From positions 1 through 32,913 of IMG/VR virus record IMGVR_UViG_3300027896_000135: a stretch of DNA of 32,913 bases. One strand, 5' to 3'. The notes under the pieces are model-generated. The model made no database searches, had not been told where the DNA came from, and saw only the letters and a program-made list of their open reading frames with translations. Source of the stretch: a virus. This document shows positions 4,685-32,913 of this stretch, piece by piece. How positions within the stretch are numbered: the first letter of the stretch is position 1; the number at the start of each line of letters is the position of its first letter. Both the position numbers and the translations under genes were made by a program.

Positions 4685-5119
4685 CTACATATACTGCTTC
4701 AGCAATTTTACAATCTCTGTGTGTCTTTCTCCTCTTGCCCATCGCAAAGGTTCATCATTAGCTGCATGCACATCTGCTCCAGCATCTAACAATAATTTCA
4801 CTATTTTATAATATCCGTGAAAACTAGCATGTCGCAAAGCATAATCACTAAAATGATGCACATTTGCGCCATTATCGATTAAAAGTTTAGTTATTTCATA
4901 GTATCCATTATCACATGCATTTTTTAATGGCCAATCATCACCATAATGTATATTTGTTGCTCCAGCAGCAATTGCATCTTTGACGATCCAAGTTATGCCT
5001 TGTTCAATTCCAGTCTTAAACTTTTCTTCAGGAGATAGATTCTTAAATATAGCTTGAAGCTCTTCTTCAGATCTTGGCGTCAAGTGTTTGATGCTTTCAT
5101 TCACAAGTTTAGCTCTCAT
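4685..5119 (-). CDS. Ankyrin-repeat protein with full N-terminal tag
   Basis: The 144-residue protein starts MRAKLVNESIKHLTPRSEEE, the full form of the shared tag. A linker KNLSPEEKFKTGIEQ and the degenerate unit ITWIVKDAIAAGA follow, then three 33-residue ankyrin units (GYYEITKLLIDNGANVHH, GYYKIVKLLLDAGADVHA, HTEIVKLLKQYM). It is more diverged from the other ankyrin genes than they are from each other. The upstream region (minus strand) has TATATAAAAC about 16 nt before the ATG, close to the late-type element. It probably binds a protein, with host target unknown. Confidence 0.85.
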   Translation of the reverse strand: MRAKLVNESIKHLTPRSEEELQAIFKNLSPEEKFKTGIEQGITWIVKDAIAAGATNIHYGDDWPLKNACDNGYYEITKLLIDNGANVHHFSDYALRHASFHGYYKIVKLLLDAGADVHAANDEPLRWARGERHTEIVKLLKQYM

Positions 5120-5150
5120 TAAAAATAATAGTTTGTTTTATATATCTTCA

Positions 5151-6017
5151 CTAAAACAAAACTACATTACTATTTTTCTCTTTGAAGTTAAAATAAACTG
5201 CTTCAGATATTTTTTGATTGTTTTTGCCTGGCTTTCCCGAGCCCATAGATTGTCTTAGAATTTTATGGCTCCAGTTAGCTCCCAATTTTTCCAGTTTTTC
5301 CATAGAAAAGACATCAGTGTATATGACAGGCCCGGGCCATTCTTTGATAAGATTTAAAAATTTTTCATATTCTGTTCCTAAGATCGTATATGTTCCCGAT
5401 TCTTTATCAAGATAAGGAGGATCCATAAATAGCATTGTTTCATGATTGACATAACTAGGCAGCCATTCTAGATAATCTTGATTAAACAATTTTATGTCTT
5501 TATATGCATTATGAATTTCATTAAATCTTTGCTCATTCATATTTCTAGTTGCAGCTGTTCTGCCTATGCCTCGAAAACCCCAGCCTTGATTAAATCCGTT
5601 AGGCCCGAAACGCATCAACGAGTTTATTGCAAAGCTGCTAATAGCCCAATAGTACATGCCTTCTTTATTTCCAGTGTTTGTTCTATGATATTTCTCATTT
5701 AGAGCAGTTCTAGCTGCATAATAATCTTCTTTTATTTGCATGGGATTTCCGAATGACCAGACTTCTTCGATGACTTCATTGAGCTCTTCATAGCTTCCGT
5801 GCTTGAATGCATCATGGATCTTGAAGACATGATAATCAATGTCATTAAGAATAATGTGATGAAATAAGTGAGAGACTGCAAGTGAAACAGTTCCAGATCC
5901 AGCAAAGGGCTCGATAAAAGTAGTCACAGAATTCTTGACGCTGTTGACGAGGTTCAAAATAATAGGTAAGAAAAGAGTTTTGTTTCCCGGATAAACTATG
6001 TAATTGAGATTTGACAA
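5151..6017 (-). CDS. dam: DNA adenine N6-methyltransferase, D12 class (Dam-like)
   Basis: The 288-residue protein has the D12-class layout: YPGNKTLFLPII at 9-20, the SAM-binding motif EPFAGSGT with FAGSG at 38-42, the acidic LNDID at 57-61 and the catalytic DPPY at 199-202. It transfers a methyl group from S-adenosylmethionine to N6 of adenine; target GATC is typical of the class but not provable here. In a phage it would protect the genome from restriction. Length is in the usual 260-300 range. It follows the terminator at 6074-6102, and I see no clear early-type promoter right before it. It lies upstream of an ankyrin gene on the same strand. Confidence 0.9.
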   Translation of the reverse strand: MSNLNYIVYPGNKTLFLPIILNLVNSVKNSVTTFIEPFAGSGTVSLAVSHLFHHIILNDIDYHVFKIHDAFKHGSYEELNEVIEEVWSFGNPMQIKEDYYAARTALNEKYHRTNTGNKEGMYYWAISSFAINSLMRFGPNGFNQGWGFRGIGRTAATRNMNEQRFNEIHNAYKDIKLFNQDYLEWLPSYVNHETMLFMDPPYLDKESGTYTILGTEYEKFLNLIKEWPGPVIYTDVFSMEKLEKLGANWSHKILRQSMGSGKPGKNNQKISEAVYFNFKEKNSNVVLF

Positions 6018-6073
6018 ATTTTTATCTTTTTTATTATATTGCTTGAGACTTACTTTGTTTCTCTTTTAAAGAC

Positions 6074-6102
6074 AAAAAAACCCTGAACTCTAAAGTCCAG
6101 GG
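6074..6102 (-). terminator. Intrinsic terminator after the 82-aa gene
   Basis: Inverted arms CCCTGAACT (6081-6089) and AGTCCAGGG (6094-6102) pair with one mismatch around a CTAA loop. On the minus strand the hairpin is followed by a run of seven T. It ends the transcript of the gene at 6158-6406. Confidence 0.8.
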
Positions 6103-6157
6103 TTTGCACAATTAAAAACACACAAACATGAAAAATTTTATTCTTCCCGAGTAACTT

Positions 6158-6406
6158 TTACTCCGTGTTTGTATTTTTTTGTAGAAAATCTTTTACTGCC
6201 CACGTTTTTTCCTGATAAAAACAAACGTAGGCACTTAATGTTTTTTGAAGTTGTTCATTAGTCATGTTTGCTTTTTTCCAGACTGTAAAAGACGATTTTG
6301 GATCCATGACAGCTAAAGTCTTGTCGACTTTTGTCCTGAATTGTGAGGGCTTTCTTCCCCTTTGTGGAGAAACATCATTTGAATTAACAATTTTGTAATA
6401 ATTCAT
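6158..6406 (-). CDS. 82-residue hypothetical protein
   Basis: The product starts MNYYKIVNSNDVSPQRGRKP and holds a basic stretch QRGRKPSQFRTKVDK, then a short helical C-terminal half ending QKNTNTE. RGRKP resembles an AT-hook core, but one copy without more basic context is weak. It forms its own small unit: an early-type promoter at 6442-6472 and a terminator at 6074-6102 bracket it. No family recognised. Confidence 0.65.
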   Translation of the reverse strand: MNYYKIVNSNDVSPQRGRKPSQFRTKVDKTLAVMDPKSSFTVWKKANMTNEQLQKTLSAYVCFYQEKTWAVKDFLQKNTNTE

Positions 6407-6441
6407 AGTCTTAAATTTTAATTAATTAATTAATATGAATA

Positions 6442-6472
6442 CAAATATAATCATAATTCTTCAATTAAAAAT
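6442..6472 (-). promoter_or_regulatory. Early-type promoter, family member 2
   Basis: On the minus strand, TTGAAGAATTATGAT runs directly into an exact TATATTTG (6449-6442), followed by TATTC. It lies 36 nt before the ATG at 6406. It is nearly identical to member 1 over the stretch AAGAATTATGATTATATTT. Confidence 0.7.
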
Positions 6473-6493
6473 ACATTAAGTGTTAAACTTTTG

Positions 6494-6688
6494 TTAAAGT
6501 TCCAGCCAAAAATAAAATATGTTTTTTCCTGTGAAAATCCAATAAAAAACCCAAATGAAGGTGAAAAATATAATAGGAGCAAAAATAATAAACGAAACTG
6601 TTTTAAAAACAAATGCAAATCTTTGCTGAGGTGTTTCCCATTTTACAATATTATTTTCGTCACGCTCAATTTTAAAAATATTTTTCAT
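6494..6688 (-). CDS. Small membrane protein (64 aa)
   Basis: A soluble N-terminus (MKNIFKIERDENNIVKWE) is followed by one long or two short hydrophobic helices at about 25-64 (FIIFAPIIFFTFIWVFYWIF then FYFWLEL). It ends the operon that starts at 8260, 2 nt after the preceding gene. The opposite strand is also open here, but the minus frame fits the operon and starts with ATG. Function unknown. Confidence 0.55.
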   Translation of the reverse strand: MKNIFKIERDENNIVKWETPQQRFAFVFKTVSFIIFAPIIFFTFIWVFYWIFTGKNIFYFWLEL

Positions 6689-6690
6689 AG

Positions 6691-6918: not shown

Positions 6919-6939
6919 AATTTCAAATCTTTTGTTGTT

Positions 6940-7137: not shown

Positions 7138-7145
7138 AGTCTATT

Positions 7146-7936: not shown

Positions 7937-8260
7937 TTATCTTAATAAACTATAACTTATATTCCACCTAAATCCTTCATCTTCTCTTACTGAAGCACTT
8001 TTGTTATTGAGCCTCATAATTATGCCTTGATGCTCTCCACCGTCTCTTCCGCTCCAATTGACAACTTGACCTCTATGAAAAGGTGATTTTGCGGCTCGTC
8101 TTTTCATATTGATTTTTGCATTCCACGCTGGATTGACAAGATGAATGATTTCAGACAGTTCATCAAAAGACATTTCCTTTAACAATTTTCCTGAGAACAA
8201 TGATCTTTCATGGGCTTCTAGTTCTTTGGGGCTTCTGGGTGTCAAATGCTTTATGCTCAT
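7937..8260 (-). CDS. Tagged SH3-like small protein
   Basis: The 107-residue protein starts MSIKHLTPRSPKELEAHERS, the short form of the shared tag. The middle is helical (FDELSEIIHLVNPAWNAK). The C-terminus (RGQVVNWSGRDGGEHQGIIM) looks like an SH3/KOW-type small barrel, a fold often used for protein or nucleic-acid binding. It is the first gene after promoter 8281-8312, so this tagged gene has an early-type rather than late-type promoter. Confidence 0.65.
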   Translation of the reverse strand: MSIKHLTPRSPKELEAHERSLFSGKLLKEMSFDELSEIIHLVNPAWNAKINMKRRAAKSPFHRGQVVNWSGRDGGEHQGIIMRLNNKSASVREDEGFRWNISYSLLR

Positions 8261-8280: not shown

Positions 8281-8312
8281 CAAATATAATCAAAAAACTT
8301 GAGACTAAAAAA
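8281..8312 (-). promoter_or_regulatory. Early-type promoter, family member 3
   Basis: On the minus strand AGTCTCAAG is followed after about 9 nt by an exact TATATTTG (8288-8281). It sits 20 nt before the ATG at 8260 and drives the 8260-6494 gene run. Confidence 0.75.
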
Positions 8313-8339
8313 TCTTGAGCAATAAATTTTAACAAAATT

Positions 8340-8717
8340 TTAATTTTTATAAAATTTTATTCTTATTTTTAATATTGTTTTAGTAAAATTATCATTTGTT
8401 TCTTCGTCTTCTATTTCATAGCGTACATTTTCTTTTTTCAATGTTCTGAACAGCTGTTTCCTGTTGTGAAGATCAACTTGCATAGACAATGTATAATAAT
8501 GCACTAAATGATGATGAAGATTATAAATAACATTCTTACTAAAGCCAGTAGACATTAATTTTATGTCAATGATATGCAACCTTTTGCATAGTTCCGTTTT
8601 CGCAAAATCTAAATCCATGTGAAAAAAATCCATAGAAAAAATCAAATCTTTGTATGATATAGTTGCAAGATATGCATTTATCTCCTCTTCTGATCTTGGT
8701 GTAAGATGTTTTATCAT
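8340..8717 (-). CDS. Tagged hypothetical protein, paralogue A
   Basis: The 125-residue protein starts MIKHLTPRSEEEINAYLATI. It matches the neighbouring protein at 8714-9070 along its length: SYKDLIFSMD, ELCKRLHIIDI, HYYTLSMQV, YEIEDEET and a C-terminal KIRIKFYK. The pair is a tandem duplication that has since diverged. The N-terminal tag is the best-conserved part. It is the last gene of the ten-gene operon from 10731. Function unknown. Confidence 0.65.
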   Translation of the reverse strand: MIKHLTPRSEEEINAYLATISYKDLIFSMDFFHMDLDFAKTELCKRLHIIDIKLMSTGFSKNVIYNLHHHLVHYYTLSMQVDLHNRKQLFRTLKKENVRYEIEDEETNDNFTKTILKIRIKFYKN

Positions 8718-9070
8718 TTATAGATTTTCATTCGTATTTTATATACATTTTTTGTATAATCATTATATTCGTCTGATTCTTCATCTTCTATTTCATAATG
8801 TATGTCTTCTTTTTCTAAAGCGTCATACATATATTTTCTGTTATATCCACGCATATGTACTATTACTGTATAGTATTGCACTACGCTATGGATAAAATTG
8901 ACGGCACATATTCTTAAGCCATTCATCCCTATGTCAACGATGTGCAACCTTCGGCATAACTCTTTTTTCATAAAATTTGAATCCATGCCAAAAATCAAAT
9001 CTTTTAAAGATACAGCTGCAAGATATGTCTCTATTTCTTCTTCAGATCTCGGTGTAAGATGTTTGATCAC
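8714..9070 (-). CDS. Tagged hypothetical protein, paralogue B
   Basis: The 118-residue protein starts at a GTG (9070) as MIKHLTPRSEEEIETYLAAV; GTG is chosen because the tag begins there. It shares SLKDLIFGMD, ELCRRLHIVDI, QYYTVIVHM, YEIEDEES and KIRMKIYK with paralogue A downstream, and the two genes overlap by ATGA. A small helical N-terminus and strand-rich C-terminus are likely. Function unknown. Confidence 0.65.
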   Translation of the reverse strand: MIKHLTPRSEEEIETYLAAVSLKDLIFGMDSNFMKKELCRRLHIVDIGMNGLRICAVNFIHSVVQYYTVIVHMRGYNRKYMYDALEKEDIHYEIEDEESDEYNDYTKNVYKIRMKIYK

Positions 9071-10797: not shown

Positions 10798-11208
10798 TTA
10801 TTTCATGTGTTGTTTCAAGAGCTTCACCACTTCAGCATGCCCATAAGCACTTGCCCATCGCAGAGCCTCATCATTATCTGCATGCACATTTGCTCTAGCA
10901 TCCAACAACAGTTGCACCACTTCAGCATGTCCATTTAAGCTTGCCCATCGTAAAGCCCCATCATCATTTCCATGCACATTTGCTCTAACGTCTAGCAGCA
11001 CCTTCACCACTTCAGCATGCCCATAAGCACTTGCCCATCGTAAAGCCCCATCATCATTTGCATGCACATTTGCTCCAGCAGCGATCGCATCTTTGACAAG
11101 CCAGGCTATGCCTTGTTCAGCTCCAGTCTCTAGCTTTTCTTGAGGAGACAGATTTTTCATAGTAGTTTGAAGCTCTTGTTCAGATCTTGGCGTCAGATGC
11201 TTTATCAT
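10798..11208 (-). CDS. Ankyrin-repeat protein with KHLTPRSE tag
   Basis: The 136-residue protein starts MIKHLTPRSEQELQTTMKNL, then the first unit IAWLVKDAIAAGANVHA and three nearly identical 33-residue units (GHAEVVKVLLDVRANVHG and similar), ending GHAEVVKLLKQHMK. At the DNA level the units are close copies of those at 1-230 and 32580-32913, showing recent duplication or gene conversion. Several units read DVRAN or DARAN where the canonical sequence is DAGAD, so some loops have drifted. It overlaps the upstream gene by ATGA and ends the operon from 15318. Confidence 0.85.
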   Translation of the reverse strand: MIKHLTPRSEQELQTTMKNLSPQEKLETGAEQGIAWLVKDAIAAGANVHANDDGALRWASAYGHAEVVKVLLDVRANVHGNDDGALRWASLNGHAEVVQLLLDARANVHADNDEALRWASAYGHAEVVKLLKQHMK

Positions 11209-15322: not shown

Positions 15323-15356
15323 CAAATATAAACAAAATACTTGACACTAAAAAATT
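15323..15356 (-). promoter_or_regulatory. Early-type promoter, family member 5
   Basis: On the minus strand AGTGTCAAG, then nine nt and an exact TATATTTG (15330-15323) followed by TATC. The element nearly touches the ATG at 15318, which implies a leaderless transcript if that start is used. The upstream box lies just before the stop of the gene at 15355. Confidence 0.75.
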
Positions 15357-15621
15357 ATTTGAAGCTTTTTTTCTTTAATTGTTCTTGAAGTTGTTTAAAG
15401 CTATTGACATCCATGCATTCGAGCTCTTCTTCTGTGACTTGTCTTAGACTGTCACAATTTTCAATCTCATATATTGCAGGTGAAGAATATCCAATGTTTA
15501 TTTGTAGTCTGTCAAGAAATTCGTTTCTTCCAACAAACCATAACAAGCCGACTGCTTTTTCATTTTGAAGTGTTAATTCAACAACTTCACCAATTAATTT
15601 TTGTGCTTGCTCTATAATCAT
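15355..15621 (-). CDS. 88-residue hypothetical protein
   Basis: I choose the ATG at 15621 (MIIEQAQKLIGEVVELTLQN), which overlaps the metallopeptidase stop as ATGA; the longer frame to 15642 would overlap by 25 nt. It looks like a small SH3-like barrel (GEVVELTLQNEKAVGLLWFV) with a charged C-terminal helix. The acidic stretch VTEEELECMD recalls the tail of other proteins here. Function unknown. Confidence 0.55.
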   Translation of the reverse strand: MIIEQAQKLIGEVVELTLQNEKAVGLLWFVGRNEFLDRLQINIGYSSPAIYEIENCDSLRQVTEEELECMDVNSFKQLQEQLKKKSFK

Positions 15622-21331: not shown

Positions 21332-21973
21332 TTATTTATATATTTTAATAAATTTTTTATTTTTGGAATCCCAACCATACCCTCGCTTCCTCATTACTTC
21401 ATATCTTTCTGGGATATCTAACCACTTTCCAAGTTCTTCATCCCAATTATATTCCCATGATCCTTCATAATAACTACCTTTATCGTATGATCTATCATGT
21501 TTATAATTATTATCTTTAATCCATTGACTGTCTTTTTTATGTATTTCTGCTTCATGTGCTGCATAATGTTTTTGATTTTCTTGATAAGTTTCTTCATCAA
21601 AGCCTATATACTCTGATATATCTTTAACTACTTGTTTCCACATTTTTTTTGTAAAAGATTTTATAGGTATCCAATCTAATTCATTTTGATATTCATCATC
21701 ACTGCTAATTCCATTAAATGCCACAGTATCATAATAAAATTTAATTTCGACTCCTTCTTCTCCTTCTGAAACATATAATGAAATAGTTTCATGTATTTCT
21801 GGAACATCTACAGAAAATTGTGTGCCTGACTCAAAATTACCGTCAAATTCAGCATTTAAATATGGCAAATATTTTTTAACTGCATCTTTTAATGCTTTTA
21901 TATTTTTATCAATTTCCTCTTCAGATCTTGGTGTAAGATGCTTTATTGCTTCATTTACAAATTTTGCTCTCAT
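21332..21973 (-). CDS. Tagged hypothetical protein with Trp/Tyr-rich C-terminus
   Basis: The 213-residue protein starts MRAKFVNEAIKHLTPRSEEE, the full tag. The middle is strand-rich (GTQFSVDVPEIHETISLYVS, VEIKFYYDTVAF). The C-terminus has aromatic, charged segments (YYEGSWEYNWDEELGKWLDI, RKRGYGWDSKNKKFIKIYK). It lies 5 nt downstream of the gene at 21979 and carries the promoter of the next gene in its last codons. Function unknown; cargo role inferred from the tag only. Confidence 0.65.
   Translation of the reverse strand: MRAKFVNEAIKHLTPRSEEEIDKNIKALKDAVKKYLPYLNAEFDGNFESGTQFSVDVPEIHETISLYVSEGEEGVEIKFYYDTVAFNGISSDDEYQNELDWIPIKSFTKKMWKQVVKDISEYIGFDEETYQENQKHYAAHEAEIHKKDSQWIKDNNYKHDRSYDKGSYYEGSWEYNWDEELGKWLDIPERYEVMRKRGYGWDSKNKKFIKIYK
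21333..21340 (-). promoter_or_regulatory. Late-type promoter element TATAAATA
   Basis: An exact minus-strand TATAAATA followed by AAAG, 12 nt before the ATG at 21320 and overlapping the end of the upstream gene. The element and spacing recur before 22407 and 26704, with variants before 23150, 23718 and 31753. It matches the T4 late-promoter core. Confidence 0.55.
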
Positions 21974-21978: not shown

Positions 21979-22407
21979 TTATTCTTCATTTAATTCAGGA
22001 TACATCTTTAATAAAGCTTCTAGAGTTATTTGTCTATCTGTTTTATCATATATAAGCATCTTCTTATCTGAAATATTAGGATAAACAGTTATAACATATT
22101 TTTCTTTTTTTAATAAATCAATTAAAAAATAACATTTATTATAACTACTTAACTGATACTGATCAAAATATCTTGCTGCTTCTCGAAGATTTCCTTTATT
22201 AGAAATTGACCATTCACTTGTTCCTAATTCTAATGCTGCTTTTACTGAAGGAATATCTATCAAAAAAACATAATCATTATTAAAAATTATTTTAGCTCCA
22301 GTTTGTTTTATTTTTCTAATTAGTGGCGCTTTTCCTAAGCCAATGCCCATGTCTTCTATAGGATCAGATTCATCTGTAAACTTTTCATATATAAATTTAG
22401 CTCTCAT
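21979..22407 (-). CDS. Tagged hypothetical protein, variant tag
   Basis: The 142-residue protein starts MRAKFIYEKFTDESDPIEDM, a variant of the tag that keeps MRAKF and an acidic turn. An alpha/beta body follows (AKIIFNNDYVFLIDIPSVKA, CYFLIDLLKKEKYVITVYPN). A late-type TATAAATA stands 10 nt before the ATG (22418-22425). Function unknown. Confidence 0.65.
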   Translation of the reverse strand: MRAKFIYEKFTDESDPIEDMGIGLGKAPLIRKIKQTGAKIIFNNDYVFLIDIPSVKAALELGTSEWSISNKGNLREAARYFDQYQLSSYNKCYFLIDLLKKEKYVITVYPNISDKKMLIYDKTDRQITLEALLKMYPELNEE

Positions 22408-22472: not shown

Positions 22473-22832
22473 TTAGTTTGGAGAATTAATATTTCCATCC
22501 CAATAATTTCCAAATTCTTTATTTTTTTGTTTAATCCATTTAAATACTTCTCTGGCAAATTTATTATCAGATATTGGTTCAGTTATATTCCATTGCATAT
22601 CATCAGCCCAATCATCGTTAATTAACCATTGTATAAATTCTCCTCTACCAAATACGTTTTCATGCATATCAGTTTCTACATTACCAAATCCGGCGCAGTC
22701 ATATGCGCTGGATAAATCAAGATCGTGACTTTTAATTATCATTTCATCTACTAAAGATGCTATTCTTTCAGCTCTTTCAGGAGTCATAAAACGTTCTTCG
22801 TTTAGACTCTCTTTAACTAATTTTGCTTTCAT
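22473..22832 (-). CDS. Tagged hypothetical protein (MKAKLVKESLNEE)
   Basis: The 119-residue protein starts MKAKLVKESLNEERFMTPER, followed by AERIASLVDEMIIKSHDLDL and an acidic, Trp-rich C-terminus (FIQWLINDDWADDMQWNITE). The tag contains L-N-E, which fits a gp21-type cleavage site. A terminator follows directly. The upstream AT-rich stretch lacks an exact late element. Function unknown. Confidence 0.65.
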   Translation of the reverse strand: MKAKLVKESLNEERFMTPERAERIASLVDEMIIKSHDLDLSSAYDCAGFGNVETDMHENVFGRGEFIQWLINDDWADDMQWNITEPISDNKFAREVFKWIKQKNKEFGNYWDGNINSPN

Positions 22833-22841: not shown

Positions 22842-23150
22842 TTATTTTAAATCATTTACATTTAAAACAACAAAATCATCATCAGGAAATCCATCTATAA
22901 ACGAATAACTTATGTTATTATTATTTAATTCTTCTAATAACTCATCCCAATCAACAGATTCATTCCATGAACTAACAAATACAGCGTCTTTTTCATCAAT
23001 TCCCAACGCATTAATTGCATCATAAAATTTTCCGCGAAATTTCTTTGCATACACATTTTTCACCTCACTGAAATAAGTATAATCTAATTCATCTTTATTA
23101 AGAATTGACGAAGAATCATTAAGACTCTCTTTAACTAATTTTGCTTTCAT
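22842..23150 (-). CDS. Tagged hypothetical protein (MKAKLVKESLNDS)
   Basis: The 102-residue protein shares MKAKLVKESL with its neighbours and then diverges: SEVKNVYAKKFRGKFYDAIN, SWNESVDWDELLEELNNNNI and an acidic end. It probably folds as a small alpha/beta protein. The element TATAAATT stands 9 nt before the ATG. Function unknown. Confidence 0.65.
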   Translation of the reverse strand: MKAKLVKESLNDSSSILNKDELDYTYFSEVKNVYAKKFRGKFYDAINALGIDEKDAVFVSSWNESVDWDELLEELNNNNISYSFIDGFPDDDFVVLNVNDLK

Positions 23151-23232: not shown

Positions 23233-23718
23233 CTAATCTTGATCTTCAGATTCAATATCTTCAATCATTTCATCATATATAGATTTGGTCAAATATTTCA
23301 CATTTATATGATCTGGAATTAAACTTTGGTACATTGATCTCCCTCTTCCTAGTTTTACATGAGCTGAAGTCATTAAAGGTTGAGAACCATCATAAAATTG
23401 AAATCCGTTTTGTTCATCTAATATAAGAGCAATACCTCCTTCTTCATTATTATGGAATTTAAGTCTTTCATCTTCTACAAGAAATATTAAACATGCTATT
23501 TCTTTATCATTTTCATCTAAAGCAAGTTCATCTGGAAAATCTTCGTCGCTTTCTGTTAATTTAATTGCTAATTTTTTTTCTAATTGTTTAGCTAATGAAC
23601 GAATTTGCGGATATTTTTTTGAAAATTCTCGCAGTTCATTTTTACGTTCATCACTAAAGTATCTTGAATTTTGAATTTTTTCATCATCAAGAGATTCTTT
23701 AACTAATTTTGCTTTCAT
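23233..23718 (-). CDS. Tagged hypothetical protein (MKAKLVKESLDDE)
   Basis: The 161-residue protein has the tag MKAKLVKESLDDEKIQNSRY, a charged helix (LAKQLEKKLAIKLTESDEDF) and a strand-rich region (GIALILDEQNGFQFYDGSQP, KLGRGRSMYQSLIPDHINVK). It ends very acidic (EDIESEDQD). It is one transcription unit of its own: late-type TATAAATT upstream and a terminator downstream. Function unknown. Confidence 0.65.
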   Translation of the reverse strand: MKAKLVKESLDDEKIQNSRYFSDERKNELREFSKKYPQIRSLAKQLEKKLAIKLTESDEDFPDELALDENDKEIACLIFLVEDERLKFHNNEEGGIALILDEQNGFQFYDGSQPLMTSAHVKLGRGRSMYQSLIPDHINVKYLTKSIYDEMIEDIESEDQD

Positions 23719-24210: not shown

Positions 24211-24243
24211 CAAATATAATCAAAATACTTGACAAAAAGAAAT
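24211..24243 (-). promoter_or_regulatory. Early-type promoter, family member 7
   Basis: On the minus strand TTGTCAAG, then about nine nt and an exact TATATTTG (24218-24211), 28 nt before the ATG at 24182. Confidence 0.75.
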
Positions 24244-24258
24244 GTTTTACTGTTTATT

Positions 24259-25902
24259 TTATCCGCATTTACTAAATGTGCATTGCGAACAATGTCTGCA
24301 ATTTTCTTCTTGAACCATACTGCTGCCACATTCCGGACATTTCTCTAATGTTAATTCATCATCAATATATCTTGATAATGTTCTTCTAAGAGCAGATGAA
24401 AAAGAAGTTACATTTTCATCTATTTTTGATATAACATGATTCACGTATTTAACAGGAGCACCGTGTCTCAATATCATTGATGCAGACAGTGTCAGTGTTT
24501 TTTCCTCCACTCTGCTCATTGCCAAATTCAGATCTGAGATTTCAAATTCTCCATTCACAAATTTATACTCTCCTTTCTTAACTTTAATTGTTTTTCCTTT
24601 TGTGTTTTTCTCCATTGGTGGATTTTCAAATGCAAAAACTTCCCAAGGTCTGTTTGTTCCTGGCCATAGTCCCACGATAACGGCAAATTTTACTCCTTTA
24701 ACAGTTGCAACATAATAATCTGCTTCAAGAACTTTAGGTCTTTTAGGCGCATGATTGATTTTGAATTCTTCTTCTTTCTTGATCAAGACCCCAGAACGAG
24801 AGCCTTCTCTATAAACTGTAAATCCTTTGCAGCCTAGTTCCCATGCTTTCATATATAGATCTGATACAGTTTCTTTAGTTACATCTGATTTTAAATTAAC
24901 AGTTTTGCTTATGCTATGATCTATCCAATGCTGAGCAGTTGATTGGATATCTATACCTTTTAAAAAATCTATTTCATTGGCAGTTGCCTTATAATATGGA
25001 GATTTTGTTATGTCTGTTTCACCCGTTATTTCCATCCATTTTTTTAAACCATGGTGATAGACAACATACTCTTGCCATTTATCTCCATTTTGATCAATAA
25101 AATCGGGCTTTATTTCAACATTCATTATTTTTTTTCTTCTTTTATATTCCAACATAAAAATTGGTTCTATGCCAGAAGATGTTTGTGTCATAAGACTTAC
25201 TGTACCTGTTGGACTTTGGGTATTACATGCTATATTTCTTCTTCCATATTTTTTATAATCTTCATATAATTCTTTATCTGCAAGCCATAATTTAGTAAGA
25301 AAAGAATGATCTTTTTCTAATTCTAAATTAAAAATTGGAAAGGTTCCGCGTTCTTTTGCAAGATTAATAGACGATTTATATGTATTTAAAACTAAAGTTT
25401 TATATATTTCATTTACTTCTTTGATAGATTCATCAGAACTATATTTGATATTTAAATAAGCTAACGCATCACCCAAAGATGTTAGTCCTAAGCCTGTTCG
25501 TCTTCCATTAATTGCATTTTGTTTAATTTTGTTCCATAATTCTGTTTCTACTCTTTTAGTTTCATGATTTTCAGGATCATTTTTTATTTTTTTAAGTATT
25601 TTATCAATTTGTTCTAATTCGAGGTCTACTAAATCATCCATCAATCTTTGTGCTATCTGAATATGTTTTGCAAATAGTATGTAATTAAATTTTGCCTTTT
25701 CTGTAAAATAATTTTCTACATAACTAATTAAGTTTAAAACCATTAAACGACAACTATCGTATGAAGATAAACATAATTCTGCACAATTATGAACTAATAA
25801 ATCATTAGCAAAAAAATTATAATTATCTCTAACAGATATGTCATACACGTCTTCATTTTGTATAACATTTATTTTTTTAATCTTGACTTCTTTTATCTTC
25901 AT
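24259..25902 (-). CDS. nrdJ: Ribonucleotide reductase class II (NrdJ), C-terminal part preceded by C-terminal split intein
   Basis: The 547-residue product starts with a 39-residue C-intein (MKIKEVKIKKINVIQNEDVY ... NFFANDLLVHN) and then the extein from Cys40 (CAELCLSSYDSC). The extein carries the class II reductase core: GRRTGLGLTSLGDALAYL at 133-150, ACNTQSPTGTVSLMTQTSSG at 225-244, EPIFMLEYKRRKK and a Cys-rich C-terminal zinc ribbon (522-547). Class II enzymes reduce ribonucleotides using adenosylcobalamin. After splicing to the N-part at 26755-27942 the mature enzyme would be about 799 residues, with the essential active-site Cys as the +1 residue. The start overlaps the endonuclease gene by 26 nt. 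Confidence 0.92.
   Translation of the reverse strand: MKIKEVKIKKINVIQNEDVYDISVRDNYNFFANDLLVHNCAELCLSSYDSCRLMVLNLISYVENYFTEKAKFNYILFAKHIQIAQRLMDDLVDLELEQIDKILKKIKNDPENHETKRVETELWNKIKQNAINGRRTGLGLTSLGDALAYLNIKYSSDESIKEVNEIYKTLVLNTYKSSINLAKERGTFPIFNLELEKDHSFLTKLWLADKELYEDYKKYGRRNIACNTQSPTGTVSLMTQTSSGIEPIFMLEYKRRKKIMNVEIKPDFIDQNGDKWQEYVVYHHGLKKWMEITGETDITKSPYYKATANEIDFLKGIDIQSTAQHWIDHSISKTVNLKSDVTKETVSDLYMKAWELGCKGFTVYREGSRSGVLIKKEEEFKINHAPKRPKVLEADYYVATVKGVKFAVIVGLWPGTNRPWEVFAFENPPMEKNTKGKTIKVKKGEYKFVNGEFEISDLNLAMSRVEEKTLTLSASMILRHGAPVKYVNHVISKIDENVTSFSSALRRTLSRYIDDELTLEKCPECGSSMVQEENCRHCSQCTFSKCG
25786..25902 (-). other. C-terminal half of a split intein (Int-C, 39 aa)
   Basis: Residues 1-39 of the downstream gene: block F DVYDISVRDNYNFFANDL and block G LLVHN followed by Cys +1. 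Terminal Asn and the penultimate His are the residues that cyclise and release the intein. Known split NrdJ inteins have a C-half of nearly the same length and the same NFFANDILVHN end. Confidence 0.9.
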
Positions 25903-26704
25903 GGTTCATTATTCTTTTTAGTTTCCATTCTTTGACATTATTAATATTTTTTTCACAATACGGAGCAATATCAGTTATCAATATAAATTCAATATCTTTT
26001 TTTAATTGTTTTTTTAATTCTTCATATTTATATACTTTATCTTTCCAATATCCCTTTATTTCAACTATCTGTATAATCTTTTTATTATTTATTTTATCAA
26101 ATATAAAAAAATCGGGTCTATATGATTTATTTTCACTTATTTTATATAATGTACATTCTACATCCCATATTATATTTTTTGAATCTAACCATTTGGCGTA
26201 AATATATTCCCAAGAACTTCTTAACCACACATATTTTTTAAAATATTTATTATAATAATACCCCTGAATTCCTCGTGCACATGAATTTTTTATTTTAACT
26301 TTTTTTATACATTCTTCAGATGCCCATCCTATTTTATTTTGTACTTCATATAAAGCTTTTTCTTTTCTTATTTTATGCAAATGATCTGTGATTTCATTAT
26401 GTTTTCTTAGTATAATATCAAAAAAAGATTTCAATGTCATTCTTAAAACAGGATATGTTATTGGCAAATTTAAATACTTTATCATATATTTTATTCCATA
26501 TTCTTTTTCATAATAATAATAATGTAATAATTTTTTACATTCTTGGTATCTTTCATCTTGTTTTATTCCCTCTACATCATGACCTGTATTTCCTCTGCAT
26601 ATAGGTATTCCGTGTTCATTTACAGTATGTTTAATAATAGTAATATAAAACTTTTTATTTTGAATATCACTTAACAAACTTCTTAATTTTAATAATTCAT
26701 CCAT
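25877..26704 (-). CDS. Free-standing PD-(D/E)XK-type homing endonuclease between the two reductase halves
   Basis: The 275-residue protein has an N-terminal helical DNA-binding-like part (LLHYYYYEKEYGIKYMIKYL ...) and a C-terminal nuclease core: VWLRSSWEYIYAKWLDSKNI at about 160-180, RPDFFIFD near 199-206 and IVEIKGYW near 218-225. The PD ... ExK arrangement with RSSWE is typical of phage homing endonucleases of restriction-enzyme or Vsr-like fold. It should cut reductase genes lacking the intein, allowing the split intein locus to spread. It has its own late-type TATAAATA 12 nt before the ATG, like intron endonucleases of T4 that are made late. Its stop overlaps the start of the C-part by 26 nt. 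Confidence 0.85.
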   Translation of the reverse strand: MDELLKLRSLLSDIQNKKFYITIIKHTVNEHGIPICRGNTGHDVEGIKQDERYQECKKLLHYYYYEKEYGIKYMIKYLNLPITYPVLRMTLKSFFDIILRKHNEITDHLHKIRKEKALYEVQNKIGWASEECIKKVKIKNSCARGIQGYYYNKYFKKYVWLRSSWEYIYAKWLDSKNIIWDVECTLYKISENKSYRPDFFIFDKINNKKIIQIVEIKGYWKDKVYKYEELKKQLKKDIEFILITDIAPYCEKNINNVKEWKLKRIMNHEDKRSQD

Positions 26705-26716
26705 AATCCTTGCTTT

Positions 26717-26724
26717 TATTTATA
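26717..26724 (-). promoter_or_regulatory. Late-type promoter element TATAAATA before the endonuclease
   Basis: An exact minus-strand TATAAATA (in ATATATAAATAAAAGC), 12 nt before the ATG at 26704 and 31 nt after the reductase N-part stop. It would uncouple endonuclease expression from the early reductase transcript. Confidence 0.55.
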
Positions 26725-26754
26725 TATTTATATTAAAAGCGAGGATTATTACCC

Positions 26755-27942
26755 TTATTGCATGTCTAATTCTAATAAAATATCGTTTTCTGTAAGTTTT
26801 GCCGCTTCAACCCATCCTCTATTTTTTGTATAGACTTTATGGTCAGGCGTTAATTTAATTCGTTTTCCATCTTCAAGTTCTAATTCAATAACGTTTGCTT
26901 TTATTTTTGTTAAACTAGCATAATCTAAATTTTTATGTTCTAATTGAGATGTTTTTATATTATAAGACATAATATAAATTTCATTTTTCATTTTTTGAAA
27001 ATTATCACTTAATTCACGGATAGTTATTTTTCCTTGTGAAGTTTCAATTAAAGTATCACCTGTTAAGCACGGGTTGACTCCCGTGGTCTGAAAACCATAA
27101 TCTTTATATATGTCTGATGGTGTATTTTTTAATATAGTATCCCAAAATAAAATTCCTGGTTCAGCTTGCTCCCATGTATTTGATATAAATAAATTCCATA
27201 ATTTTTTTGCATCAATCTCTTTAAAAATAATTGGATTTTTTTCTGGCCATTTTTGTACATACATCTTATTATTTTTAACGGCCATCATAAATTCATCATT
27301 CACTCGAATAGAAATATTAGCGCCAGTTACTTTAGTTCTGTCATTTTTTATTGTTATAAATGTTTCTATTTGTGGATGATTAACAGCACATGATAAAATT
27401 AGTGCTCCGCGTCTTCCATTTTGCGCGACTTCTCTAGTTGTATTTGAAAATCTTTCCATGAATATGCCTATGCCGTCTGTAGTTTTTGCAGCATTGTTAG
27501 TTTGCATACCTTTGGGCCTTATGTTTGAGATATCAAAGCCTACTCCTCCTCGTCTTTTCATGAGTTGAGCCTGTTCCTGATCAGTTCTGAGAATCCCACC
27601 ATAAGAATCTGCTGGAGATTCTATAACAAAACAATTTGATAAGCTTTGTAATCTATAATCATTTCCTATGCCCTCCATAGGAGATCCTTGCGGAATAATA
27701 TATTTAAAATGATCAAAGTATGAAAAGATCTCTTCTTCAGAGATTGGATTAGGATATTTTTGCTCTATTCTTGCAAATTCTTTAGCTAATCTTTTATGTG
27801 TGTCTTCGGGAGTTAATTCTTTAAAATTTCCTTCTTTATCTTGTAATGCATATTTTGACATCCAAACATCACAAGCCATTGCATCTCCTGAAAAATATGA
27901 TAATGTAGCTTCTTTGACTTCTTCATGGGTATAGTTTGCCAT
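26755..27942 (-). CDS. nrdJ: Ribonucleotide reductase class II (NrdJ), N-terminal part ending in N-terminal split intein
   Basis: The 395-residue product has reductase extein at 1-291, with NCFVIESPADSYGGI at 103-117, RRGGVGFDISNIRPKG at 130-145, and EPGILFWDTIL near 261-271. It ends at the active-site motif VNP, where the intein begins at Cys292 (CLTGDTLIETSQGK). Residues 292-395 form the N-intein with block B LTPDHKVYTKNRGWVEAAKL and the end DILLELDMQ. There is no ATP-cone domain at the N-terminus. The protein is inactive until spliced to the part at 24259-25902. The arrangement matches 'fractured genes' known from phage metagenomes. Confidence 0.92.
   Translation of the reverse strand: MANYTHEEVKEATLSYFSGDAMACDVWMSKYALQDKEGNFKELTPEDTHKRLAKEFARIEQKYPNPISEEEIFSYFDHFKYIIPQGSPMEGIGNDYRLQSLSNCFVIESPADSYGGILRTDQEQAQLMKRRGGVGFDISNIRPKGMQTNNAAKTTDGIGIFMERFSNTTREVAQNGRRGALILSCAVNHPQIETFITIKNDRTKVTGANISIRVNDEFMMAVKNNKMYVQKWPEKNPIIFKEIDAKKLWNLFISNTWEQAEPGILFWDTILKNTPSDIYKDYGFQTTGVNPCLTGDTLIETSQGKITIRELSDNFQKMKNEIYIMSYNIKTSQLEHKNLDYASLTKIKANVIELELEDGKRIKLTPDHKVYTKNRGWVEAAKLTENDILLELDMQ
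26758..27069 (-). other. N-terminal half of a split intein (Int-N, 104 aa)
   Basis: Begins with catalytic Cys1 in block A (CLTGDTLIETSQGKITIREL) and contains block B TPDH, whose Thr and His help the N-S acyl shift. It stops at the classic split site and has no linker endonuclease domain, so it is a mini split intein with its endonuclease encoded separately. Confidence 0.9.
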
Positions 27943-28113: not shown

Positions 28114-29556
28114 TTAGTTTAGTTGTTTACTAACTTCTTTTTTTCTTTGTTTCAAGATTTTTTTAAGTTCATCGGCTTCTTTTTCTGCTAATAAAGAAAC
28201 CTTTTTTGCATCTTTTCTTTGTGTATAGTAATCTGTTAAAATTGTTGATAATAGAGGGTCATAAGATGCATCAAAGACTGCTCCACTATAAGTTTTAATT
28301 TGATCAGCTTTTGGCACATGATTTTTGTCTTTAAACAAGAAATTTTCTATAGATATTTTAAACTGTCGTTGAATGCTTGGATATAGAGAGCTAAAATCAA
28401 ATATTGCTACCCATGGATATATGCCTCTTATAGGCTCAAAAACAAAAGCTCCTTCATATTGCTCTCTTTCTTTTGATTCTTCTCTTTTTGGAAATATTTG
28501 TCCACGTTTATATGCATATCTTGTTAACGTAGCTTCTAGCATTGCAATTGGTGAAAATGCTGTCATTGCTTCTACTCGAGTGATATTTCCTAAGCCTAAA
28601 AATGTTGCCATTGTCTTTAGCTTTAAGTCTAGAAGCTCTATAAGAACCGTGTCAATGCAATTATATATAATATACTTTACATAATCTTTGTTATACATGT
28701 CTTGAAGATTTCCAGAATATTGCAATTTTTTGATTCCTAATGCTTCTTCAGAAACAAAATCTAGAGTGTCATTTTCTTTAACTTCAATAGTTCTATCCCA
28801 TTTTTGATAGATTGCCATGTAATCAATTATCAATTTATGTTGTGGCAGCATTATCTCAACACTTTCGTTATGATCTTTTATTTTTTGTGGAAACCATTGT
28901 CCTGTCGGAGATAACCAGTCTACATTTAAATTTAATTTCTTGCATCTGTTCATCATATATCTCCAATCATATCCCCAGAAATTCCATCCAGTTATCAAAA
29001 TAGCTTGTCTTGCATAATTATAGAGAAAATCATAAAGCATATCTGCTTCATTTTTGTGATATTTATAAATGAAGTTGTACTTCTTATCAGATTTCGAGAT
29101 ATGCTCATTTATGCCACGTTCAATTTCAGCACATTCTTCACCTGATAAAATCTTATTGCCAAATGTAACGATGTCAGGATATTGTGAAAAAGAAATGCTA
29201 TTAATTCTATTATTTGCAGTTGAAGGTTCAGCAAATCCTTCATCTGTGACTTCAACTTCAATATCACAAGCAGATAATATCGGCATGTTTGCTTCGAACA
29301 AATGAGCTGTAGCATCTTCACCTGCATCCATGAAAAACTCTTGAATTCTGTGTCTATTTATAAACTGAGTTGCAATCTTTCTTACCGGTCTAAAATCCCA
29401 AGAAAGCAATCCAGGAATTCCTCTATTCTTTTGAGCATATGCATAGATATATTGATGTGAAGGTGGAATAACTAGTTGTGTAAACCCGATTGTCCCATCT
29501 ATTTTAACATAAGAAATTATAAGTTTTCCTTGGCGCTGCTCAATATTTAAAATCAT
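28114..29556 (-). CDS. B-family DNA polymerase, exonuclease and motif A half (gp43A-like)
   Basis: The 480-residue protein is T4-type polymerase: 3'-5' exonuclease motifs DIE (Asp98/Glu100), GWNFWGYDWRY (Asp197) and YNCIDT (Asp302), then palm motif A DFSSLYPSI at 387-395. It stops at KKEVSKQLN, just before where motif B (KxxxNSLYG) is expected. Motif C (DTD) is absent too, and neither motif is found anywhere in the window. In some T4-related Aeromonas phages gene 43 is naturally split at this point into 43A and 43B, which work as a complex. So the partner is either elsewhere in the genome or lost at an assembly join. The codon use is normal, with no sign of decay. Confidence 0.9.
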   Translation of the reverse strand: MILNIEQRQGKLIISYVKIDGTIGFTQLVIPPSHQYIYAYAQKNRGIPGLLSWDFRPVRKIATQFINRHRIQEFFMDAGEDATAHLFEANMPILSACDIEVEVTDEGFAEPSTANNRINSISFSQYPDIVTFGNKILSGEECAEIERGINEHISKSDKKYNFIYKYHKNEADMLYDFLYNYARQAILITGWNFWGYDWRYMMNRCKKLNLNVDWLSPTGQWFPQKIKDHNESVEIMLPQHKLIIDYMAIYQKWDRTIEVKENDTLDFVSEEALGIKKLQYSGNLQDMYNKDYVKYIIYNCIDTVLIELLDLKLKTMATFLGLGNITRVEAMTAFSPIAMLEATLTRYAYKRGQIFPKREESKEREQYEGAFVFEPIRGIYPWVAIFDFSSLYPSIQRQFKISIENFLFKDKNHVPKADQIKTYSGAVFDASYDPLLSTILTDYYTQRKDAKKVSLLAEKEADELKKILKQRKKEVSKQLN

Positions 29557-30437: not shown

Positions 30438-30974
30438 TTATTTTTTATCTGATGATCCGAAGCCTTTTGATCCTCGGCTTGTTTCTTTTCCATAAAATTC
30501 TGATATAGTTTGTTCTTCTACAATTGATATATATGAATTGATTATTGGCATTTCTATAAATTGTACTATTTTCATGCCTGCTGTAATTGTGACAGTCATA
30601 TTACTTGTGTTTATTAAGCTTAAGTGAATTTCCCCCTGATAATCGGTGTCAACCACAGCACTCCCGACGATCAATCCAAGATTTGCAGCCACACCAGATT
30701 TATTGAATGCAATTAAAGCTCGATGATCTCCGGCCATTTGACAATGAATGCCTGATGGAATCAAAACTCTTTGTTGAGGATACAATACAAATGATTTATC
30801 TTTTATAAAATTCATGATTTTAAATTCTGACATCCATGAATTTTTACTTGCTAAATCTTTGATAAATATCGGAGTAAATTCAGGAACATAGAAATCTATA
30901 CCAGCGTCCGTCTGATTCGCTCGAGTAGGAGATTTAACTTCTCTTGTTTTAAGGAATTTGATTGTTTCTGTCAT
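30438..30974 (-). CDS. dut: dUTPase (deoxyuridine 5'-triphosphate nucleotidohydrolase)
   Basis: The 178-residue protein has all five trimeric-dUTPase motifs: DAGIDFYVPE at 23-32, NKSGVAANLG at 91-100, GSAVVDTDYQGEIHL at 104-118 (with the catalytic Asp), GMKIVQFI at 133-140 and RGSKGFGSS at 167-175. It turns dUTP to dUMP, keeping uracil out of DNA and feeding dTMP synthesis. It is somewhat longer than the usual 150 because of an insert at about 37-60 (KDLASKNSWMSEFKIMNFIK). Its start codon lies within a perfect 10-bp inverted repeat, which may control its translation or transcription. Confidence 0.95.
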   Translation of the reverse strand: MTETIKFLKTREVKSPTRANQTDAGIDFYVPEFTPIFIKDLASKNSWMSEFKIMNFIKDKSFVLYPQQRVLIPSGIHCQMAGDHRALIAFNKSGVAANLGLIVGSAVVDTDYQGEIHLSLINTSNMTVTITAGMKIVQFIEMPIINSYISIVEEQTISEFYGKETSRGSKGFGSSDKK

Positions 30975-30998
30975 ATAATTTGTTTGTTATTATATGAC
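30970..30998 (-). promoter_or_regulatory. Perfect inverted repeat over the dut start codon
   Basis: Arms GTCATATAAT (30970-30979) and ATTATATGAC (30989-30998) are exact complements with a 9-nt spacer; the dut ATG (30974) is inside one arm. As RNA it would hide the start codon in a hairpin; as DNA it could be an operator. The minus-strand TATAAT in the arm could also serve as a promoter element. Confidence 0.65.
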
Positions 30999-31026
30999 AA
31001 GGAGATTTAAAGTTTTAAGAAATAAC

Positions 31027-31254
31027 TTATTTTTTATTGCTTTGTCCTGACATACTCAGGCCAATGGCAATTGCTTGACGTCTGCCAGCTTCAGTTTTAG
31101 GCACTTTCTTTTTTGAACGTCCTATATGTTGCTCACCGGATTTCCAATGATGCATCACTTCATGAAATTTTTTCTCTTTTCCTTTTTTTGTTGTAGGAAT
31201 TTTTCTTTTTTCATTAAGAAAATCATCTACTGATTCATTAACTAACTTTTCCAT
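31027..31254 (-). CDS. Tagged DUF6496-like basic protein
   Basis: I choose the ATG at 31254 because the tag MEKLVNESVDDFLNEKRK begins there and the spacing to the next gene upstream is 4 nt; a longer frame would overlap it. The rest (EVMHHWKSGEQHIGRSKKKV, AGRRQAIAIGLSMSG) matches the MHxxKxGxLxSGS...RQAIAIALS pattern of DUF6496. The protein is 75 residues and very basic, fitting DNA association in the head. Tag ends L-N-E, then K. Confidence 0.75.
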   Translation of the reverse strand: MEKLVNESVDDFLNEKRKIPTTKKGKEKKFHEVMHHWKSGEQHIGRSKKKVPKTEAGRRQAIAIGLSMSGQSNKK

Positions 31255-31258
31255 ATTT

Positions 31259-31534
31259 TTAAAATGCATTTTTAATAAATTTTTCAGAACCTCGTCCTGT
31301 AGGATTAATCCCAGCTTTTTTACTTGCTTTTGCGAATGATTCTCTACGACGTTCCATTTCATCTTGTCCATAATAATATTGATCTAATAAAGTTTGATCA
31401 ATTTCTTTATCATTTGTAACATTCATTTCTCGTCTTAATTCTTTCATTTCTTGTTCAGCCCGTCTATTAAAAGCACGCCCTCGTTTTGCTTCATTTATGA
31501 ATTCTTCTAAGCTTTCATTAACTAGATTTTCCAT
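31259..31534 (-). CDS. Tagged basic helical protein (MENLVNESLEEFINE)
   Basis: The 91-residue protein has the tag MENLVNESLEEFINEAKRGR, then basic/acidic helices (RRAEQEMKELRREMNVTNDK) and YYYGQDEMERRRESFAKASK. The tag ends I-N-E, then A, a good match to a gp21-type site. It sits between two other tagged genes, each separated by about 4 nt. Function unknown; likely a packaged internal protein by analogy with T4 internal proteins. Confidence 0.7.
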   Translation of the reverse strand: MENLVNESLEEFINEAKRGRAFNRRAEQEMKELRREMNVTNDKEIDQTLLDQYYYGQDEMERRRESFAKASKKAGINPTGRGSEKFIKNAF

Positions 31535-31537
31535 ATA

Positions 31538-31753
31538 TTATTTCTTTTTCTTTTTTGCAATACGTCTGAGATTTTTCGCCATATTGTATCGCTTGCTACC
31601 TTTGGGACAACTAGGCCCACCAAAATTGCTCCCAGAACAAACGCCTTCTGTCCCTCTTTTTTTCACATCTTTGAAAGCACCTTGTATCCACTTAGATTTC
31701 TTTTTTCCTTCATTCAGGAATTCATCTAATGATTCATTTACATACTTTGCCAT
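31538..31753 (-). CDS. Tagged basic Gly/Cys-rich protein (MAKYVNESLDEFLNE)
   Basis: The 71-residue protein has the tag MAKYVNESLDEFLNEGKKKS, then KWIQGAFKDVKKRGTEGVCS and a Gly/Cys segment, ending in a very basic tail (NLRRIAKKKKK). It is the first gene of a three-gene tagged set (31753-31027). The tag ends L-N-E, then G. A late-type TATAAAATA stands 11 nt before the ATG. A basic, DNA-binding internal protein is the best guess. Confidence 0.7.
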   Translation of the reverse strand: MAKYVNESLDEFLNEGKKKSKWIQGAFKDVKKRGTEGVCSGSNFGGPSCPKGSKRYNMAKNLRRIAKKKKK

Positions 31754-31764
31754 TTTTATATTTT

Positions 31765-31773
31765 TATTTTATA
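31765..31773 (-). promoter_or_regulatory. Late-type promoter variant TATAAAATA
   Basis: Minus-strand AGATATATAAAATAAAAA, one A longer than the TATAAATA core, 11 nt before the ATG at 31753. The AGATATATAAA block is shared with the sites before 22407, 23150 and 23718. Confidence 0.45.
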
Positions 31774-31776
31774 TAT

Positions 31777-32913
31777 CTAAAACATTCCATAATATTCTAT
31801 AATATCACCTGCATGTAATGTGCTACTGATTCTCTTATCCTTAAGTAAAAGCTTTATCATTTTTAAACCTTCGGGAGAATTTTTCGGCGCCCATGTCAAT
31901 AACGCTGAGCCTATGTGTGAATAAAAATTGGTGTAAGCAGCTCTGGGTTCTATATTCAACCTCGAGTCCTTCAACAATTCTTTGACAACATTATAATGAT
32001 TAGCTTGAATTGCGTGTCTTAATGCAAAATTATTTTCTGTGCTTGGGTCCACTCTTGGATCTTTCAACAACAGCTTAACAATTTCCAGATTAGTTGTGTC
32101 ACCTTCATTATAATATGCGTAAGATGCATGTCTGATCGCTGAATTGTCCTGCACTGTAGGGTCAGCGCCTTCATCTAATGCCTCTTTGACAAGCCATGTG
32201 ATCCCGTACATGTATCCCGCAATCAGCTTTTGATCAGGCTCGGCTTTTTTGGCGCCTTCCTTGACAAGCCAATCAATTTTATGACTACCACCATAGTTCA
32301 ATAATTTATGAGCGCTGAGGTCTTTTTCTTCTAATGCCAATTTTATCAGCCAATCTATTTTATGTGTACATCCAGCTTCAAATTTAATGCTAGGATCTAT
32401 ATGTTCTTCAGAGACAGCTTCTCTGATGACCCAATCTAAGTTGTTTTTGCATCCGAACAAAAACTTGTCTAATGTTGACAGATCTTTAATAGATTGTCTC
32501 ATTTCATCTTCAGATCTTGGTGTAAGATGCTTGATGCTTTCATTGACTTTTTTTGTTACATCTCGTTTTAGCAGCTTCACCACTTCAGCATGCCCATTGT
32601 TGCTTGCCCACCACAATGCCAAATCATCTCTTGCATGCACATTTGCTCCAGCATTAAGCAGCAGCTTCACCATCTCAGCATGCCCATAGTAGCTTGCATT
32701 TTGTAAAGCCCCATCATCCCATGCATGCACATCTGCTCCAGCATCTAGCAGCACCTTCACCATCTCAGCATGCCCATTATCGCTTGCCATTCGTAAAGCA
32801 TAATCATTTATTGCATGCACATCTGCTCCAGCATCCAACAACAATTGCACCACTTCAACATGCCCATTGCCGCTTGCCCATCGCAGAGCCTCATCATTAT
32901 CTGCATGCACATC
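31777..32913 (-). CDS. Ankyrin-repeat fusion protein with an internal tag (5' end outside window)
   Basis: The frame is open to the window end and joins 1-358 in frame through the terminal repeat. From the N-terminus it has several near-identical ankyrin units (GHAEMVKVLLDAGADVHA), then KLLKRDVTKKVNESIKHLTP (bases near 32570-32510), which is the shared tag in mid-protein with no start codon. After it comes a second half: four degenerate units with the core IDWLVKEA, then ankyrin-like units (TNLEIVKLLLKDPRVDP, HYNVVKELLKDSRLN). This looks like two tandem tagged ankyrin genes fused by loss of the first stop. It ends IIEYYGMF. Function unknown. Confidence 0.85.
   Translation of the reverse strand, partial: DVHADNDEALRWASGNGHVEVVQLLLDAGADVHAINDYALRMASDNGHAEMVKVLLDAGADVHAWDDGALQNASYYGHAEMVKLLLNAGANVHARDDLALWWASNNGHAEVVKLLKRDVTKKVNESIKHLTPRSEDEMRQSIKDLSTLDKFLFGCKNNLDWVIREAVSEEHIDPSIKFEAGCTHKIDWLIKLALEEKDLSAHKLLNYGGSHKIDWLVKEGAKKAEPDQKLIAGYMYGITWLVKEALDEGADPTVQDNSAIRHASYAYYNEGDTTNLEIVKLLLKDPRVDPSTENNFALRHAIQANHYNVVKELLKDSRLNIEPRAAYTNFYSHIGSALLTWAPKNSPEGLKMIKLLLKDKRISSTLHAGDIIEYYGMF
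32787..32913. repeat. 127-bp terminal direct repeat (copy of 1-127)
   Basis: Second copy of the exact terminal overlap; see the entry at 1-127. Both copies lie in the same ankyrin frame. Confidence 0.95.

Follow-up and report, generated by a model that had tools for sequence, protein, structure and literature searches.

A two-part N-terminal tag, its cleavage-site-like junction and candidate cargo polyproteins in a Lak-related megaphage clade

The N-terminal tag, its junction and the tandem units

The IMG/VR virus record IMGVR_UViG_3300027896_000135, a stretch of 32,913 bases analysed over its whole length (hereafter the window), encodes fourteen proteins that start with variants of one N-terminal tag, a candidate capsid-targeting signal. 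An earlier interpretation made from the letters of the window (the sequence-only reading) had listed these starts at 358, 5119, 8260, 8717, 9070, 11208, 21973, 22407, 22832, 23150, 23718, 31254, 31534 and 31753, and our analysis confirmed all of them as real minus-strand open reading frames (ORFs) with the N-termini described. The resemblance among them is far above that of internal, C-terminal and shuffled controls: ungapped pairs of N-terminal 35-residue segments scoring at least 38 numbered 25, compared with 2 for mid-protein segments, 3 for C-termini and 0 for shuffled sequences, and the same test on G011, a 405-kb relative, gave 1732 pairs against 144, 140 and 19, respectively.

Three sub-types of the tag were distinguished in the window, namely a leader followed by an H module (SIKHLTPRSEEE), a leader followed by a D module (KFTDESDPIEDMGIG) and a leader alone. 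In the ankyrin protein at 4685-5119, the leader MRAKLVNE (5096..5119; this and all tag features below are on the minus strand), a candidate capsid-targeting sequence with its predicted cut after the final Glu, is followed across the junction by the H module SIKHLTPRSEEEL (5057..5095); in gene 21973, the leader MRAKFVNE (21950..21973), with its putative cut before Ala, precedes the H module AIKHLTPRSEEEI (21911..21949). The third H-type copy, noticed earlier near 32540, lies in frame at 32500-32559 of an ankyrin polyprotein, where the junction VTKKVNE (32539..32559) leads into the module SIKHLTPRSEDEM (32500..32538), and it is a true internal copy because its initial Val is encoded by GTA, which is no start codon. 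The D form is found only in gene 22407, whose leader MRAKFIYE (22384..22407) is followed by KFTDESDPIEDMGIG (22339..22383; E=2e-16 with the hidden Markov model (HMM) of the tag described below). The leader stands without a second module in genes 22832 (MKAKLVKESLNE, 22797..22832), 23150 (MKAKLVKESLND, 23115..23150), 23718 (MKAKLVKESLDD, 23683..23718), 31254 (MEKLVNESVDDFLNE, 31210..31254), 31534 (MENLVNESLEEFINE, 31490..31534) and 31753 (MAKYVNESLDEFLNE, 31709..31753), the last with a homologue in L009 that reads MKKLVTESLDEFLNE↓A (the arrow marks a putative cut). Predicted mature isoelectric points (pI) are 11.0 for 31254, a small basic protein in which a weak DUF6496 match starts after the tag (residues 24-68), 9.7 for 31534 and 10.8 for 31753.

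In five other proteins of the set, the H module is preceded by neither leader nor junction: 358 (MSIKHLTPRSEQEL, 317..358), 8260 (MSIKHLTPRSPKEL, 8219..8260), 8717 (MIKHLTPRSEEEI, 8679..8717), 9070 (VIKHLTPRSEEEI, 9032..9070, with a GTG start) and 11208 (MIKHLTPRSEQEL, 11170..11208). The tagged proteins had been described as diverging completely behind the tag, which holds for part of the set; 358, 5119, 11208 and 32540 are ankyrin paralogues, and 8717 and 9070 form a further paralogue pair.

An exact 127-bp repeat is common to both ends of the window (1-127 and 32787-32913), inside the ankyrin array, and joining gene 358 over it yields a 455-aa two-unit ankyrin ORF. Most likely the repeat is a k-mer-127 assembly artefact, which gives a 33-kb fragment the false appearance of a complete circle. 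The window comes from a much larger jumbo-phage genome, because the relatives detected with its DNA polymerase (58-80% identity) lie on large contigs, including G011 (405,016 bp), G009 (322,902 bp) and contigs of 162 kb and 111 kb; the nearest named relatives by this protein are the Lak phages and LR756500.1 (462 kb), at ~36% identity. Genomes of the relatives were fetched, their genes were called, and a profile HMM of the D-form tag was built and searched. Thus extended beyond the window, the tag was found on 60 genes in G011, 15 in G003, 14 in G007 and 4 in G004, with 1 in the window itself. The tag of G011 has the form MKLVREHINE↓KFTEESDPIHDMGIG, the D form that window gene 22407 also carries. 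Over all fetched loci, there were 268 distinct tagged ORFs with 395 tags, counts that include overlapping loci and leave 350 tags once repeats are removed; 72 ORFs had 2-8 tags.

The two parts of the tag behave differently. The leader is present once per ORF, measures 8-15 residues (10 in 90 of 120 parsed cases), and is conserved, typically as MKLVREH, at N-terminal copies only, with up to 1.8 bits per position as against 0.2-0.8 in internal copies. In separate alignments, N-terminal and internal copies show equal conservation of (I/V/L)-N-E at the junction and of the module KFTEESDPIHDMGIG. At the fixed junction position, (L/I/V)-x-E was present in 325 of the 350 tags and in 104 of the 110 internal ones, compared with 2.4% of positions in the same proteins. 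Other leaders (MRAKFIYE, MKFYAYRKWLNE and VKKVREYLGE) differ in sequence, yet likewise end in (I/L/V)-x-E. For the H modules of the window, L006 and L007, all eight junctions found have V, L or I at P3, Glu at P1 and Ser or Ala at P1'. The sequence-only reading had named the LTPRSEEE form as a weak point for lacking a clean (L/I)-x-E; these junctions largely resolve the difficulty, and V-x-E also occurs at the putative self-cleavage site of the proteases described below. Synonymous codons are mixed under the conserved tag residues (all six for Ser), so it is the peptide, not the DNA, that is constrained. A tag-peptide search of a phage collection gave no match to the D tag and, for the H tag, only weak ones at the level of chance; a scan of bacterial genomes returned 53 pattern matches, of which 0 had the full module, and the literature searched did not contain the tag motifs.

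Module and junction are repeated inside ORFs, with up to eight copies at a median spacing of 119 residues; the longest chain, in G007, has eight tags in an ORF of 918 residues. Such multi-tag ORFs occur repeatedly, with sequences that have diverged, in many independent contigs, and we therefore rejected assembly slips as their source. We distinguished ~100 sequence families among the 334 downstream units, the largest being a family with the pattern RxF..WL..LPxIL (47 units), ankyrin (41), LRR-like (35) and KRGDII (22), and a single ORF combines 2-8 units of different families. In 73 representatives, Pfam detected mainly ankyrin repeats and no clear enzymes, and neither Pfam nor PHROGs detected a peptidase or a known conflict domain. 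The units are basic: their median pI is 8.8, whereas the remaining G011 proteins have a median of 6.5. Single and chained forms are interchangeable, in that units of the zinc-ribbon-like, ankyrin and LRR-like types each occur both as single genes and within chains, and a solo L006 domain behind MKFVRETLDE↓ resembles the end of a D-tagged G011 polyprotein (67% identity over 129 residues), in which the domain follows an internal VKESLINE↓. The H-tagged genes of L006 occupy the gp25 baseplate operon, and D-tagged genes sit in that operon in G011. AlphaFold modelled a two-unit protein as two confidently predicted domains, and the score fell below 50 only near residues 2-11 and 140-144, spans that contain both junctions (E9↓K10 and E142↓K143); a fold search of the PDB with this model gave no significant match. 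The second conserved module, the internal repeats of module and cut site as polyproteins, and the clade-wide extent of the system had all escaped the sequence-only reading.

Prohead protease, capsid genes and known systems

The gp21-like protease that a cleavable tag would need was sought in the relatives, and the gp21 family (PF03420) was detected in G011, G009, G014 and G021, and also in LR756500 and Lak-C1. In G011 (306658-309003) and G009 (209366-211756), with homologues in W01 and W02, the protease forms the N-terminus of proteins of 781 and 796 residues, respectively, whose C-terminal part looks like a scaffold, and the fused gene directly adjoins a gp23-type capsid gene. A conserved putative site marks the fusion point. 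At the end of the protease domain, five diverged proteases read LHKVNE↓G, LHQIHE↓S, LNRVNE↓A, LDRINE↓S and LHSVNE↓S, and since C-terminal processing has been reported for both T4 gp21 and SPN3US gp245 (PMC9026906, PMC5694885), we read this (V/I)-(N/H)-E↓(G/S/A) as a putative self-cleavage site. In four of the five proteases, [LIV]-N-E is over-represented in the scaffold part (in G011, 9 observed against 1.0 expected); in LR756500, only the broader [LIV]-x-E is enriched. The capsid proteins carry HALNE↓AAMGG near their N-terminus, and judged from sequence, the putative protease site, the candidate capsid site ALNE↓A and the tag junction appear to agree.

The closest known counterpart is found in T4, where the internal proteins IPI, IPII and IPIII as well as Alt carry a capsid-targeting sequence (Mullaney and Black; reviewed in PMC9026906). 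For IPIII, the first 10 residues are sufficient, with residues 4 and 7 governing targeting and residues 8 and 10 processing (PMC9026906). For IPII, the annotation records MKTYQEFIAE as a leader of 10 residues that is cut off during maturation, and MKLVREHINE, the commonest leader in this clade, is of equal length and shares K2, E6, I8 and E10 with it. Both systems thus place a short leader, most commonly of 10 residues and ending hydrophobic-x-E, on unrelated small basic proteins, and relatives of the window encode a gp21-family protease and a gp23-type capsid protein, as does T4. The earlier suggestion of capsid targeting is supported by these likenesses, by the (I/L/V)-x-E leader ends and by the PF03420 gene beside the capsid gene. 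In contrast, T4 has only a handful of tagged proteins, compared with up to 60 per genome in this clade, and has neither a conserved second module nor tandem cleavable chains.

Other injected proteins resemble the system in part. phiKZ and SPN3US, with processing of gp175 and gp245, also have many injected head proteins, some with N-terminal propeptides cut after x-E, and SPN3US gp53 and gp54 have an identical 15-residue N-terminus (PMC5694885); however, the propeptides there mostly exceed 100 residues, processing affects few of the proteins, polyprotein chains are not reported, and the SPN3US cleavage motif is A-x-E (PMC5694885). The polyvalent proteins of phages and plasmids are likewise multi-domain and predicted to travel in the virion and to be injected as infection begins, but they are long fusions with enzyme domains and often a peptidase domain of their own (PMC5512222), whereas the units described here are ~120 residues long, mostly of unknown type or ankyrin, and headed by a repeated capsid-protease cut site.

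Comparable tags were observed in the named relatives. In LR756500, about two dozen unrelated proteins start with MKYIKEYEEF(L/I)(N/L)E↓ (leader MKYIKEYEEFLNE↓), and in Lak-C1 (MK250029), read with TAG as Gln, about a dozen proteins (e.g., at 1557-3733 and 266588-270274) have a leader ending in (L/I)-x-E followed by SLFDDxDDI(L/I), as in LLE↓SLFDDYDDIL; we found no published description of this Lak tag. Neither the D module (as an exact pattern) nor polyproteins of this kind were detected in LR756500 or Lak in these searches. It seems that the whole clade marks large cargo sets by such tags, with second modules that are specific to each lineage.

Promoters and neighbouring genes

A TATATAA-type box resembling T4 late promoters, AGATATATAAA, lies upstream of gene 31753 (31768..31778, minus strand), and the same type of box precedes 5119, 22407, 23150 and 23718. 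The box [AG]A[TA]ATATAA occurred within 60 bp of 23 of the 36 tagged genes that lead an operon, compared with 82 of 477 others (p=4e-9). T4-late-type promoters, as proposed for tagged genes by the sequence-only reading, stand as a preference for this box before tagged operons; the strict form TATAAAT was not enriched before tagged genes, and the argument rests on a box chosen after looking, because only the [AG]A[TA]ATATAA form is enriched. Most tagged genes of G011 lie inside operons, with no box of their own. A separate repeat family, D4, has eight intergenic copies in the window (e.g., 8281-8340, 15323-15382 and 24211-24270), several of which read like TGTCAAG..TATATTTG on the minus strand; because these resemble the Bacteroidota -7 box TAnnTTTG, the repeats suggest early promoters and a possible Bacteroidota host.

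Several neighbouring genes deserve mention. The B-family DNA polymerase is apparently split: the window gene at 28114-29556 (480 aa) contains the exonuclease and the first part of the palm, and separate genes of ~390 aa in the relatives (G007 97546-98718; G009 80532-81707) have an N-terminal sequence that resembles the rest of the polymerase. At 24259-27942, an intein interrupts the large subunit of ribonucleotide reductase, and the intein halves flank a separate gene (25877-26704) that is apparently a homing endonuclease. A 483-aa ORF at 2057-3508 has the motif ALDLNPNYIGWS, resembling the RuvC core of TnpB-type nucleases, and a similar ORF is present in LR756500. In G011 (271813-272517) and G009 (186819-187493), a SET-domain protein with a T4-like N-terminus, matched by PF00856 in the G011 copy, is encoded beside T4-core-like genes.

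Competing explanations and the proposed mechanism

The tag might work at the level of DNA, as an expression cassette of promoter, ribosome site and optimal first codons copied before new genes, its peptide having no role in destination. Near-identical DNA does run across the tag in 22832, 23150 and 23718 (repeat family D6), and 23150 and 23718 share box and tag upstream as well; however, the mixed synonymous codons, the lack of a box before most tagged genes of G011 and the 110 internal copies, which need no start and retain junction and module while losing the leader, largely refute this explanation, and we regard it as highly improbable. The regular spacing of ~119 residues and the commonness of ankyrin and LRR-like units would also suit a module that is no more than a motif at the N-terminus of some repeat or domain superfamily, its tandem copies arising by ordinary domain duplication with no cleavage. 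Yet the units span ~100 sequence families, including ankyrin and zinc-ribbon-like ones, the (V/I/L)-N-E conserved before the module matches the putative site of the protease itself, and the junctions are the low-confidence points of the single model built, which makes plain duplication an improbable account.

Alternatively, the tag could direct proteins elsewhere, to the phage replication compartment, the host membrane or the ribosome, and be cut or kept for that purpose. The short, amphipathic-looking leader, the leaderless module proteins of the window and the many tagged genes with no late-type box of their own would fit such a destination, but the leader resembles the known capsid-targeting sequence in length, in residues 8 and 10 and in its junction, the prohead protease is the only matching protease found, and tagged genes occupy the gp25 baseplate operon in two lineages; we consider another destination unlikely.

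We infer instead that the leader targets cargo to the prohead, where the prohead protease would remove it and cut tandem chains into units, and we hold this model probable as a whole, including leader, second module, cargo polyproteins, cutting and injection. The leader, with its (I/L/V)-x-E end, would dock the precursor to the prohead core, and the gp21-type protease would cut after the Glu and remove it. The second module (KFTEESDPIHDMGIG or SIKHLTPRSEEE) would then stay at the N-terminus of each mature cargo unit, perhaps as a docking or ejection handle for each unit, which is a guess. A polyprotein would consist of one leader and then 2-8 units, each headed by junction and module, and the same protease would cut it inside the head into separate small proteins, which would then be injected, together with the DNA, into the next host.

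Several observations weigh against this model. These phages are uncultivated, and their virion content is predicted from sequence. The window, being a fragment, has no protease gene. A plain T4-type leader would not be expected to come with a second conserved module, and the five leaderless H proteins of the window mean that the H module is not always tied to targeting and suggest that it also acts outside packaging. Most D junctions have Lys at P1', and about half have Val at P3, where T4 prefers Leu or Ile, so the motif is broader than that of T4. In 23150 and 23718, the leaders end in SLND and SLDD, which leaves LVKE↓S as the sole candidate junction. The likeness of HALNE↓AAMGG to the end of the T4 gp23 propeptide comes from an alignment by eye, the tool alignment being weak there. 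Late expression of the tagged genes is likely, on the evidence of a box that is similar to the T4 late promoter and no closer than that.

For the Lak-related megaphage clade, we think it somewhat more plausible than otherwise that a capsid-maturation protease processes dedicated polyproteins made of small effector units, each with a cut site and a handle left after cleavage, and that dozens of proteins per virion are produced, packaged and injected as an interchangeable set. If so, a scan for the tag would reveal, from their genomes, which proteins huge uncultivated phages inject, and would supply dozens of candidate first-minute effectors, with possible roles in anti-defence and host takeover, in genomes that are barely annotated. 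In such cargo polyproteins, a well-studied maturation enzyme would have a new use, and they would offer a ready-made system for loading many proteins.

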